In this document: in pieces, positions 59,639-64,000 of the stretch
Layout of the letters: every line of letters starts with the position of its first letter
Numbering within the stretch: position 1 is the first letter of the stretch
Origin: Chlorobiaceae bacterium
GTDB lineage: Bacteria; Bacteroidota; Chlorobiia; Chlorobiales; Chlorobiaceae
Assembly (NCBI GenBank): GCA_013335405.1
Contig: JAAXVR010000001.1
Span: 1 to 64,000 of the forward strand
Reading direction: 5' to 3'
DNA length: 64,000 nucleotides
Program-made: the position numbers and the translations under genes
Notes under the pieces: generated by a model
Told to the model about the DNA's origin: nothing
Database searches by the model: none
What the model saw: only the letters and a program-made list of their open reading frames with translations

Positions 59639-61018
59639 ATGATCACAACCATCAATCCTGCAACAGAGGAAATTATTGCAGAATACGCCACCATGAACGC
59701 CGATCTTCTTGATAAGGTGATAGGCCTTTCCCACCGTGAACAAATGTCATGGAAACTCAGCAGTTTTGCTGAACGCGTCAGGTTGATGAAACGTCTTGCC
59801 GGGCTTCTCCGGCACCAGAAGGAAGAGCATGCGTCACTTATCAGCCGGGAGATGGGAAAACCCTTTGCGCAGGCTGCAGGGGAGGTCGTGAAATCGTCAT
59901 GGGTATGCGACTATTATGCCGACAACGCCGAACGCTTCCTTCAGCCGGAAGAGATCGACCTTGACGGACAGCGAGGCCTGGTGAAATTCGAGCCGCTCGG
60001 GCTCGTACTCGGCGTCATGCCGTGGAATTTTCCTTTCTGGCAGGTTTTCCGCTTTGCTGTTCCCGCCATCATGGCCGGCAACGGTGTCATCCTGAAACAT
60101 GCCCCCAACGTTACAGGTTCGGCTATCGCCATCGAAAAACTGTTCCGGGAGGCAGGCTTTCCGGAACATCTCTACAGGACGGTCCATATCGCGCCTGACG
60201 AGGTCGATCGTCTTTCGGGCTTCATGATCGGCCATCCTTCGATCAAGGCGATCTCCGTTACAGGCAGCACCGCTGCCGGCCGCGCTGTTGCATCAAAGGC
60301 AGGTCAGGCACTGAAGCCCTGCGTGCTTGAGCTTGGTGGCAGCGATCCGTATATCGTTCTCGATGATGCCGATATCAGCCAGGCTGTAGAGGTCTGCGTC
60401 GCGGCCCGTCTCCTCAATGCAGGCCAGAGCTGCATATCGGCTAAGCGTTTCATCGTGCTTTCGGGCATTATCGATACGTTCGAGGGCCTGCTTCTGGGGG
60501 AACTCCGTGCTGCGGTTACGGGGGACCCTTTCGACCACGATGTCCAGATAGGTCCTCTTGCGCGTCGGGACCTTCGAGATCAGCTTCACGACCAGGTCCT
60601 GCGCAGCGTTGCATCTGGCGCGAGGCTGCTGTGCGGCGGAGACATCCCTTCACGAAAAGGGTATTTCTATCCTCCGACACTGCTTTCCGGTGTCCGCAAG
60701 GGGATGGCCGTCTACGGGGAAGAGACTTTCGGTCCGGTTGCCGCGCTCATCGAAGCCGCTGATGACGATGATGCTGTCAGGCTTGCAAATGATTCACCCT
60801 ACGGGCTCGGTTCTGCGGTTATGTCGACAGATCTCCAGCGGGCGCTTGCCGTTGCAGACCGCCTTGAAACCGGCAACTGCTTCATCAACAGCATGGTGAA
60901 ATCCGATCCACGGATGCCGTTCGGCGGCGTGAAAGAGTCCGGGTACGGTCGCGAGCTTTCGTCTTACGGCTTGAAGGAGTTTGTCAATATCAAGTCGTAC
61001 TGTTTCAGCGGACAGTGA
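59639..61018 (+). CDS. NAD(P)-dependent aldehyde dehydrogenase, succinate-semialdehyde type
   Basis: 459 residues. MPWNFPFWQVFRFAVPAIMAGN near residue 125 is the cofactor region. The glutamate is in LELGGSDPYIVLDDADI near residue 225 and the catalytic cysteine in LNAGQSCISAKRF near 258. The length and start resemble the short SSADH group (Sad/GabD-like). It oxidises an aldehyde, probably succinate semialdehyde, to the acid; the substrate is not certain. A DNA stretch of 295 bases to the Nif11 peptide gene follows with no other gene. Confidence 0.88.
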   Translation: MITTINPATEEIIAEYATMNADLLDKVIGLSHREQMSWKLSSFAERVRLMKRLAGLLRHQKEEHASLISREMGKPFAQAAGEVVKSSWVCDYYADNAERFLQPEEIDLDGQRGLVKFEPLGLVLGVMPWNFPFWQVFRFAVPAIMAGNGVILKHAPNVTGSAIAIEKLFREAGFPEHLYRTVHIAPDEVDRLSGFMIGHPSIKAISVTGSTAAGRAVASKAGQALKPCVLELGGSDPYIVLDDADISQAVEVCVAARLLNAGQSCISAKRFIVLSGIIDTFEGLLLGELRAAVTGDPFDHDVQIGPLARRDLRDQLHDQVLRSVASGARLLCGGDIPSRKGYFYPPTLLSGVRKGMAVYGEETFGPVAALIEAADDDDAVRLANDSPYGLGSAVMSTDLQRALAVADRLETGNCFINSMVKSDPRMPFGGVKESGYGRELSSYGLKEFVNIKSYCFSGQ

Positions 61019-61313: not shown

Positions 61314-61544
61314 TTACCAGGGTGGACAGGGAAAAATATCAAGCAGCCAGGATCCTCCGGATATGTCGTCCTCGGGGTTGCATTCCGAGCTGGTCCGCTG
61401 AATTTCTTCGATACTGCATGAAAAGCCGGCGTCGAATATTGCGCGCAGACGGGCGTTGACATCTTCGATAGCGAGAATGCTCAGGCGGAAGGCTTCATCA
61501 TTTTTCAGCTTGTCTATCAGTGCTCTTGCATGTTCGACCGACAC
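61314..61544 (-). CDS. Nif11-type leader RiPP precursor peptide
   Basis: 76 residues. The start is a GTG at 61544, with AAGGAG six bases upstream (plus-strand 61551-61556), an ideal ribosome-binding site. The leader matches the Nif11-like family: SVEHARALIDKLKNDEAFR, LAIEDVNARLRAIFDAGFSC and IEEIQ, followed by a linker ending in ISGG, a double-glycine cleavage site. The last 12 residues, SWLLDIFPCPPW, are the probable core, with one cysteine, two tryptophans and three prolines. In this family, enzymes modify the core and a C39-peptidase transporter removes the leader; neither is in the window. An upstream in-frame ATG at 61661 falls in a palindromic repeat and is rejected. Confidence 0.8.
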   Translation of the reverse strand: MSVEHARALIDKLKNDEAFRLSILAIEDVNARLRAIFDAGFSCSIEEIQRTSSECNPEDDISGGSWLLDIFPCPPW

Positions 61545-61990
61545 GGTTATCTCCTTGGCTGAAATGGAAAAAGAAAGACGATCAGAAAGGCCCCTCTTTT
61601 TATTTGCCCCGAAGCCCTCGTGCACGGGTTGGTCCCGACTCGTCGGGATCGAAAACCTCATCCCGAAAGCGTTCGGGACTCTGTCTGCCTTGTACTCGCG
61701 CTTCTCACGAAAATAAAGAGATGTGCCTGTATGGATTTCTGCACTGAAAAGATACTCATTTTACGATTGATTTGCGATGCCGCAATCATCCCGGGGTATA
61801 CGGCCGAGTTTATTTCAACGCATGATCGTCAGTTATTCCATCTCAACCCGGCTTTTCGGCAAGCGATGATCATGGATGGGCAGGATGCTGCGGCTGAGTG
61901 ACTGTCAGGGGGGGAGTATCGGTGCGAATAATAATTCGTCGGAAGGTTGTTCCCTGATGATGATGGTTTTACGGAATGTGTAAATGCGTT
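61545..61990. other. Intergenic stretch upstream of the Nif11 peptide, contains a repeat
   Basis: About 445 bases between the peptide start and the end of the kinase gene. It contains the palindromic repeat at 61632 and T-rich stretches, and a minus-strand TATCTTTT at 61747-61754 that resembles a -7 element but has no TTG at the correct distance. Short frames here show no coding character. Confidence 0.5.
61632..61679. repeat. Palindromic repeat with CCCGA/TCGGG arms
   Basis: GTCCCGACTCGTCGGGAT is followed after ten bases by ATCCCGAAAGCGTTCGGGAC, which is nearly its reverse complement; each half is itself a small hairpin. The sequence class resembles dispersed intergenic repeats. It lies 88 bases upstream of the Nif11 peptide start and could be part of its leader or simply an intergenic element. 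Confidence 0.6.
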
Positions 61991-64000
61991 TCAGGGAGTC
62001 CCCGGATTTTTGCCCATATATTTAAACAGGATTTCCTCGAGATCGCTTTTCCGGATTGGCTTGGAGATGTAATCATCCATTCCGCAACTGATGCATTTTT
62101 CACGATCGCCTTTCATCGCATGCGCAGTCATTGCCACGATAGGAATGTCCGGGGTAATGCTTGCCGTATGGTTGGTCCTGATGAATTTTGTTGTTTCATA
62201 TCCGTCCAGTTCAGGCATCTGGCAATCCATGAAAACAAGATCGTAGGGCTTTTTTCCGAGCAACGTCAGGGCTTCTTTACCGCTCGATGCGATATCGGGG
62301 GCGTATCCCAGTTTCTGAAGCATGGAAAAAGCGACTTTCTGGTTGACCAGATTGTCTTCGACAAGAAGGATCTTGAAAGTCCCGGGTGAGCTGGGGATCG
62401 GTTGTTCCATAGTCTTACTGTGTTTACCGGGTAATTTATGCTTTTTTCCTGATGTATGCATAACATCGGAAATCGAACGGTAGAGTTCCGCTCTCCTGAC
62501 AGGTTTCTGCAGGATCCTGAAAACCAGTTCTCCTGCTCGTTTTTTTATTTCACTGTATTTGACGGCAGATACGAGAAGTATTACAGGGCAGACTTTCTTT
62601 TCCTGCAATGTGGAAATGAACCTGAAAAGATCATCGCCTGTTGTGCATTCGGCATTCATGTCAAGGATTACGGCATCCCATGTTTCAGAAGGTTCGTGCT
62701 GTTCGTCGTTTTCGACAAGAACGGACAGGCATTTTTCAATACCCGGCAACGCGATGCTGCTGCATTGCCATGATTCGAGAAGATCGCTGAGCATTTCCCT
62801 TGCATTGGGATTCTTGTTGATGACAAGTATTTTTGCGTGTGCAGCGTCTTTTCCGTTCAGCAAGTGTTCATCAGCCGGCGATTCCTGTTTTTCAAGAGTG
62901 ATATCGAAACTGAATACGGATCCTTCACCCGGCTTGCTTTCCACGGTTATGCTGCCGCCCATTTTTTTGACCAGGTAATTTGAAATGGACAATCCGAGAC
63001 CGGTGCCCCCGTATTTTCTTGATGTCGTGCCATCTGCCTGAACGAATGGTTCGAAAATCGAGTTCAGATTTTCCGGCTTGAGGCCGATACCGGTATCGCT
63101 GACGGTAAAATGGATTACAATGTGGCTCGCAGTTACTCTTTCCGGAATGGCGCTGACAACAATGTCTCCACAGTGGGTGAATTTTACGGCATTTCCGATA
63201 AGATTGACAAGGATCTGGCGGATCCTTACCGGGTCTCCCCTGAGCGCTGAAGGGAAATTCCGGCCGATGAATATGGTGAGCTCGATCCCTTTCGCCTGTG
63301 CTTCCAGCCCGAGCATGCCGCATACATCTTCAATAAGAGAGAGCATATCGAAATCGACGATGTCAAGTTCAAGGCAGTTGGCCTCGATCTTGGAAAAATC
63401 GAGAATATCGTTGATGATCTCCAGCAGACTGTGTCCGCTGTTGATAATGGTATCGACATACATTCGCTGTTCAGGGTCGAGACCAGTATCGATCAGCAGG
63501 TCGGACATGCCGATAACACCGACCATCGGTGTTCGGATTTCGTGACTCATATTGGCAAGAAACTGGCTTTTTGCGGCATTTGCCCTTTCCGCCTCACTTG
63601 CCATTTCCTGTGTATGTCGGACCGATTCTTCAAGTTTCCGGTTTGTTTCGATCAGTTCATTGTGAGCGTTGTTTGCATCTTCGATAAGGTTCAAAAGGGC
63701 ATTTCTCTGGTTTTTCGAATAGACAGGTTCGTTGAGCTCATCGTCATCATCGTCGTTCAAATCCATGCTGGCAATTGAAAATCCCTTTTTCACGCTGCTT
63801 TTGACGGGTTTGAAATTGACATCGATTGACGCAAGTTCGGCCAGAAGATCTTCTTCTTCGGAAATGTAGGTGTTATCATTTTCCCTGGTTTTTTTCATCA
63901 GTTCCTTATTCAGCCGGGAAACCTGTCTTTTCAGTTCGATGTTGCGCATTTCACGGCCGACCATGATCCGGTTGAAGCGTTCGAGGTCGTTCAGCATCTT
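61991..64000 (-). CDS. Hybrid sensor histidine kinase with two receiver domains, N-terminus cut
   Basis: At least 669 residues; the frame is open past the window end. The visible start, [23 protein letters not shown], is the linker typical after an input (PAS or similar) domain. A coiled stretch follows, then the phosphorylated histidine in [18 protein letters not shown] (near 152 of the visible part), the ATP-binding domain with [18 protein letters not shown] and GTGLGLSIS, a first receiver-like domain ([14 protein letters not shown]) lacking the acidic pair, and a second complete receiver ([25 protein letters not shown]). The input signal and final output are unknown. Confidence 0.9.

Follow-up and report, generated by a model that had tools for sequence, protein, structure and literature searches.

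A Nif11-type precursor gene and an intact NHLM exporter in a green sulfur bacterium that has lost a radical SAM maturase by deletion

A Nif11-type precursor gene and an intact NHLM exporter operon are retained in a green sulfur bacterium of the Chlorobiaceae, and the radical SAM maturase found in its relatives has been deleted from its genome. The precursor lies in a window of 64,000 nucleotides (the whole stretch of DNA that was analysed) in a genome of 2.47 Mb and 62 contigs that is 99.99% complete. The best explanation, and a probable one, is that the precursor is cut after its double glycine and exported by the remotely encoded NHLM system, and that an ancestral modification is now lost. 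The features of the window are as follows.

59639..61018, plus strand: gene for a succinate-semialdehyde-dehydrogenase-like (SSADH-like) aldehyde dehydrogenase, the left border of the conserved slot
61314..61544, minus strand: Nif11-type precursor gene, 76 aa, with a GTG start and its stop at 61316-61314 (from the frame read, the leader models, and the orthologues)
61317..61352, minus strand: predicted core SWLLDIFPCPPW, 12 residues (from the sequence and the core motif common to the orthologues)
61353..61544, minus strand: leader, residues 1-64, ending in ISGG (TIGR03798 match to residues 1-58; PF07862 match)
61551..61556, minus strand: ribosome-binding site AAGGAG, with a 6-nt spacer to the GTG (from the sequence)
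61991..64000, continuing to contig position 64606, minus strand: hybrid histidine kinase/response regulator, the right border of the slot; a FIST-domain gene comes next

Sequence comparison confirms that 61314-61544 is a real Nif11-type precursor gene. The initial annotation had described a RiPP-type precursor with a Nif11 leader and a double-glycine core, and its frame, coordinates, strand, start codon, ribosome-binding site and spacer, ISGG motif, and core are all as claimed. The Nif11 leader model TIGR03798 matches residues 1-58 with E=8e-13 and 48.4 bits (curated cut-off 32.3), and PF07862 matches with 31.8 bits (cut-off 23.8). The ISGG motif occupies residues 61-64, and the 12-residue core that follows contains one serine and one cysteine. 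Its sequence identifies the peptide as an N11P precursor of a natural product, and the subfamily to which it belongs has the core pattern [S/T/A]W...(D/E/N)IF(P/L). A PDB sequence search with the peptide gave no match, and scanning the gene for promoters and terminators revealed nothing exceeding chance. Between the kinase and the precursor (61630-61680 of the window) there are two inverted repeats side by side, TCCCGACTCGTCGGGA and TCCCGAAAGCGTTCGGGA; the second of these occurs only once within the window.

The gene and its double glycine are conserved in related genomes, as the annotation had anticipated for a functional precursor. When 98 genomes of the order were searched with profiles and the GTDB species collection was scanned, full-length orthologues came to light in four other genomes (G030, G008, G092, and G105), at 75-82% identity and with the GG in all four. 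These genomes belong to Chlorobium sp. and other Chlorobiaceae MAGs. All four orthologues occupy the same slot, with the SSADH-like gene on one side and, where the contig extends, the hybrid histidine kinase and then the FIST gene on the other. The GTG start is at the same place in two of them, and one or two extra Nif11 genes stand in tandem in the slot of each relative. For the leader, pN is 0.09-0.14 and pS is 0.7-0.85; with synonymous sites unsaturated, the dN/dS of the leader is 0.05-0.14, except between the second copies of G030 and G008, where it is 0.53 with few changes. Core dN/dS lies above the leader values, at 0.11-0.57.

An intact NHLM operon is found on another contig of the same genome (C5, approximately 17.8-24.5 kb), where the search for a C39 peptidase located it. 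It encodes HlyD (TIGR03794, 281 bits), ABC1 with a C39 domain (TIGR03796, 1064 bits), ABC2 (TIGR03797, 902 bits), and a 311-residue protein. The C39 peptidase domain of ABC1 scores 121 bits against PF03412, and the C39 residues Q, C, H, and D are visible. ABC1 is under constraint, with pN of 0.10-0.12 and pS of 0.58-0.67. The 311-residue protein that ends the operon (L106:5825-6760, minus strand) is also present in G008, G092, and G105, and at the thresholds applied it has no match among the Pfam and NCBIfam models. An exporter of this type is found in all five precursor-bearing genomes. The gene order at the orthologous operon of the four relatives is Nif11, a divergent radical SAM gene, HlyD, ABC1, and ABC2; a UspA gene flanks the locus in G092 and G105, and the same UspA gene adjoins HlyD in the genome studied here. 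The first reading of the window contained no processing gene because the exporter is on a different contig. Its proposal of an orphan precursor acting in trans holds in part: there are no processing genes nearby and the C39 transporter is encoded elsewhere, but half of the trans machinery has been lost from the genome.

The lost half is a radical SAM/SPASM maturase. It is present in all four relatives that share the precursor, and a search of the genome studied here for homologues of it gave zero matches. The relatives' enzyme scores best with TIGR04463, Clo7bot, and related models, below all of their cut-offs. The DNA between UspA and HlyD now contains two stumps, in which the first codons of a Nif11 gene are joined to the antisense 5' end of a maturase gene. 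The Nif11 stump is similar to sequences of G008 (86% over 29 bp, E=2.6e-4) and G030 (85% over 26 bp, E=0.011), and the maturase 5' end, with shared upstream sequence that includes the start of HlyD, is similar to G092 (73% over 344 bp, E=3e-41). The stumps overlap at TGCATTGAAAAGAT, which nearly matches both ancestral ends, as expected for a deletion between short repeats. The ATG of the Nif11 stump is lost, and in the maturase stump a frameshift leaves MRPWSCYHTLFLFP followed by a stop. Since both stumps have decayed, an assembly error is unlikely. Relative to G105 and G092, approximately 1.8-1.9 kb is missing; this deletion took the maturase and the neighbouring Nif11 gene. The exporter tree is consistent with the species tree. 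It places this genome as sister to G092 and G105, which both retain the radical SAM gene (support 100), with G030 and G008 outside, so that the loss is a derived trait of this lineage.

Because the precursor and the exporter are on different contigs, we infer their pairing. It is deduced from the presence of the exporter in five of five genomes, the constraint on the exporter, the fact that no GG-type Nif11 besides the window precursor was found in this genome, and the correspondence between leader ends and exporter type. Statements about this genome rest on family and protein searches, in which the other Nif11 gene, on contig C14, had no GG. The precursor leader has a hydrophobic residue at -4 (Ile), while Glu58 at -7 and Ser53 at -12 are not hydrophobic, and the exporter clade to which this genome belongs shows such a pattern as a group. 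Where ABC1 is of the LPWKE-like type, the leaders mostly have hydrophobic residues at -4, -7, and -12 (ELSDEELDEAAGG). Members of the MSFMLFP-type ABC1 clade, which contains this genome and its four partners, mostly have leaders without the -4/-7/-12 pattern, and their GG leaders are without a hydrophobic -7. This correspondence cuts both ways, because the C39 protease LahT requires hydrophobic residues at -7 and -12 and fails without them (PMC10885120).

The most likely mechanism begins with recognition of the 64-residue leader in trans by the exporter encoded on C5 (HlyD, ABC1 with its C39 peptidase, and ABC2). Cleavage would then occur after Gly-Gly, and the 12-residue core would be exported. 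The maturase encoded beside the exporter in the relatives probably modifies cores of this subfamily. With the maturase and the neighbouring Nif11 gene deleted, the present product would most likely be the unmodified 12-mer, or nothing if the system is dying. Continued use of the precursor appears likely. A more specific version is possible and is offered tentatively: the same leader and exporter may have gone on to deliver an unmodified 12-mer after the maturase was lost, the leader end and the C39 domain having diverged together from the -4/-7/-12 rule. No enzyme that modifies the core was found, and the peptide is therefore better called a RiPP precursor by descent than, for its present product, a RiPP.

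Alternatively, the precursor may be a decaying leftover of the maturase loss, and the exporter may serve another, unseen double-glycine peptide. The loss of the neighbouring Nif11 gene along with the maturase is compatible with this, the exporter might also carry substrates outside the Nif11 family, and the difference in substitution rate between precursor and maturase stump is not significant (p 0.06-0.20). However, the frame, start, ribosome-binding site, GG, and core of the precursor are intact, whereas the maturase stump is frameshifted, and the core is still close to that of G092 and G105 (SWLLDIFPCP versus SWLLEIFPCP). No second GG-type Nif11 came to light, and a search for NHLP-type exporter substrates was also empty, although it was weak, since its control gave no match either. 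A leftover is thus an unlikely explanation, and export of the core remains the preferred one.

The possible modifying enzymes that remain in the genome are a pair of CXXX-repeat radical SAM proteins and a B12-binding radical SAM protein. The pair (TIGR04115, 542 bits; TIGR04119, 207 bits) is part of an apparently complete CXXX-repeat peptide system on C5 (L143:5018-9392), which comprises an ABC transporter, the two maturases, and a 68-residue peptide ending in CDGGCGGQCLSGCKDECITVSKN (L143:9186-9392, minus strand). The B12-binding radical SAM gene (L066:8207-9610) directly follows the second Nif11 gene on C14 (L066:7952-8182), which has a conserved tail, LWGN(R/K)I, here LWGNRI. The same arrangement is seen in L018, L021, and L022; four genomes retain the pair, with the enzyme 74-79% identical to the copy studied here, and the pair is possibly a separate peptide-modifying system that acts on the tail. 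In the prochlorosins the enzyme acts in trans on dispersed Nif11 precursors, and this is a precedent for modification of the window core by one of these two systems. Such modification is nevertheless improbable. A CXXX-repeat peptide that suits the CXXX pair is encoded next to it, the Nif11 partner of the C14 enzyme has a different tail without GG, and neither position nor co-occurrence links either enzyme to the window precursor.

Other modification chemistries were also considered. LANC-like synthetases (LanM) were found in none of the 98 genomes of the order, while the control genome was matched, and the lanthipeptide reading was rejected. YcaO cyclodehydratases occur in nine of the 98 but were not found in this genome, and the TOMM/LAP reading was rejected for that reason. 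Of the modifying enzymes that the initial annotation proposed to look for elsewhere in the genome, a lanthipeptide synthetase was not found, and the genome retains just the CXXX-repeat pair and the B12 radical SAM protein. The annotation's suggestion that the peptide is modified at its single cysteine is not supported: the maturase is deleted, neither a LANC-like nor a YcaO enzyme was found, and the cysteine is missing from the direct orthologues of G030 and G008 (two of the four relatives).

Across the family, the cores are diverse and rich in cysteine. The direct orthologues in G092, G105, G030, and G008 have the cores SWLLEIFPCPWYT, SWLLEIFPCPWYS, SWLEDIFPSTIWET, and SWLENIFPPTIWET, respectively. 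Second copies carry TWMWDNMEDIFLCPPKY in G030 and AWMENMEDIFLCPPKY in G008, a diverged copy in G092 has SFSEDIFLCPPKYSF after SAG instead of SGG, and further copies in the slot of G092 and G105 have SLCWTNFCFN. Copies of the leader with other cores, for which a search had been suggested, occur across the Chlorobiales as paralogous leaders with divergent cores: [GA]G is present at positions 51-75 in 92 of 114 unique Nif11 peptides, and the median core length is 16 aa. Cysteine is present in 72 of 91 related cores (4-45 residues) and makes up 8.3% of core residues versus 2.1% of leader residues. It falls in the last three core residues 34 times, compared with a shuffled mean of 22 (p=0.0015, an indicative value only, since the sequences are related). 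These figures suggest that cysteine is a usual target in this family, which agrees with the guess of the initial annotation. DIF-type copies with cysteine also have an acidic residue four positions earlier, and this D/E-x3-C spacing is mentioned only as a note on a possible thioether site.

Several other Nif11 groups were observed. Arrays of Nif11 paralogues, up to 17-19 per genome, occur in the Chlorobiales (L067, L068, L070, L074-L076, and others), and these genomes have very diverse, often cysteine-bearing cores together with a radical SAM maturase of the same type and an NHLM exporter. Another group has cores of the SCCGxTCExE type (L078, L049, L043, L045, and L197:3335-3961), with a different radical SAM/SPASM enzyme nearby in G030 (C14) and G008 (C48). 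In a further set (L036, L038-L041, L044, and L050-L052) the Nif11 proteins have a non-GG tail that hardly varies (ELNHFERWSWEAKLLADWL and very similar sequences), and these are apparently not precursors of secreted peptides.

It is very unlikely that the small protein acts inside the cell, as a partner or signal of the neighbouring hybrid histidine kinase/FIST pair, instead of being a secreted precursor. In this genome and in the three relatives with a visible kinase side (the G092 contig ends), the kinase gene is immediately followed by the precursor gene on the same strand, but the kinase-FIST block has no adjoining Nif11 gene in at least nine other genomes, so that the Nif11 slot is confined to one clade, and the GG site and the conservation of the core are consistent with a precursor that is cleaved. 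The gene is short and has a GTG start, but the likelihood of a chance open reading frame is negligible given two leader models above cut-off and four full-length orthologues that are syntenic and show a strong bias to synonymous changes.

The Nif11 family is already known in Chlorobium, and what is new here is a member with an unusual history of loss. N11P peptides (TIGR03798) with NHLM transporters were described by Haft, Basu and Mitchell in 2010, including those of Chlorobium luteolum and C. phaeobacteroides (PMC2887384). The present system shares with them the leader family, the double glycine, the three-part exporter (TIGR03794/03796/03797), and the bacterial group, but its precursor is remote from the exporter and its modifying enzyme is deleted. 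The C. luteolum N11P was linked to a TOMM cyclodehydratase, not to a radical SAM enzyme (PMC2887384). Prochlorosins, which depend on ProcM and a C39 exporter, are similar in having a Nif11 leader, GG, short variable cores, and dispersed trans precursors; they differ in that no LANC-like synthetase was found in 98 members of the order, and nothing points to lanthionine chemistry. The relatives' maturase scores best against models of radical SAM/SPASM maturases of the sacti-/ranthipeptide type (near TIGR04463, Clo7bot, and PapB), and the frequency of cysteine in the related cores is a further likeness to this type. However, the relatives' enzyme is far below every equivalog cut-off, so that it represents an unnamed branch, and it is absent from the genome studied here.

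The locus offers a view of a natural-product pathway after loss of its tailoring enzyme, with the precursor and exporter intact and both deletion stumps readable. Whether modified cores are required by Nif11 leaders and NHLM exporters can be tested directly with it. It also indicates that an orphan Nif11 precursor can arise by deletion instead of by a trans-acting design. More widely, the Chlorobiales contain a radical SAM/Nif11/NHLM family that is still unnamed and that has dozens of diverse, cysteine-rich cores.
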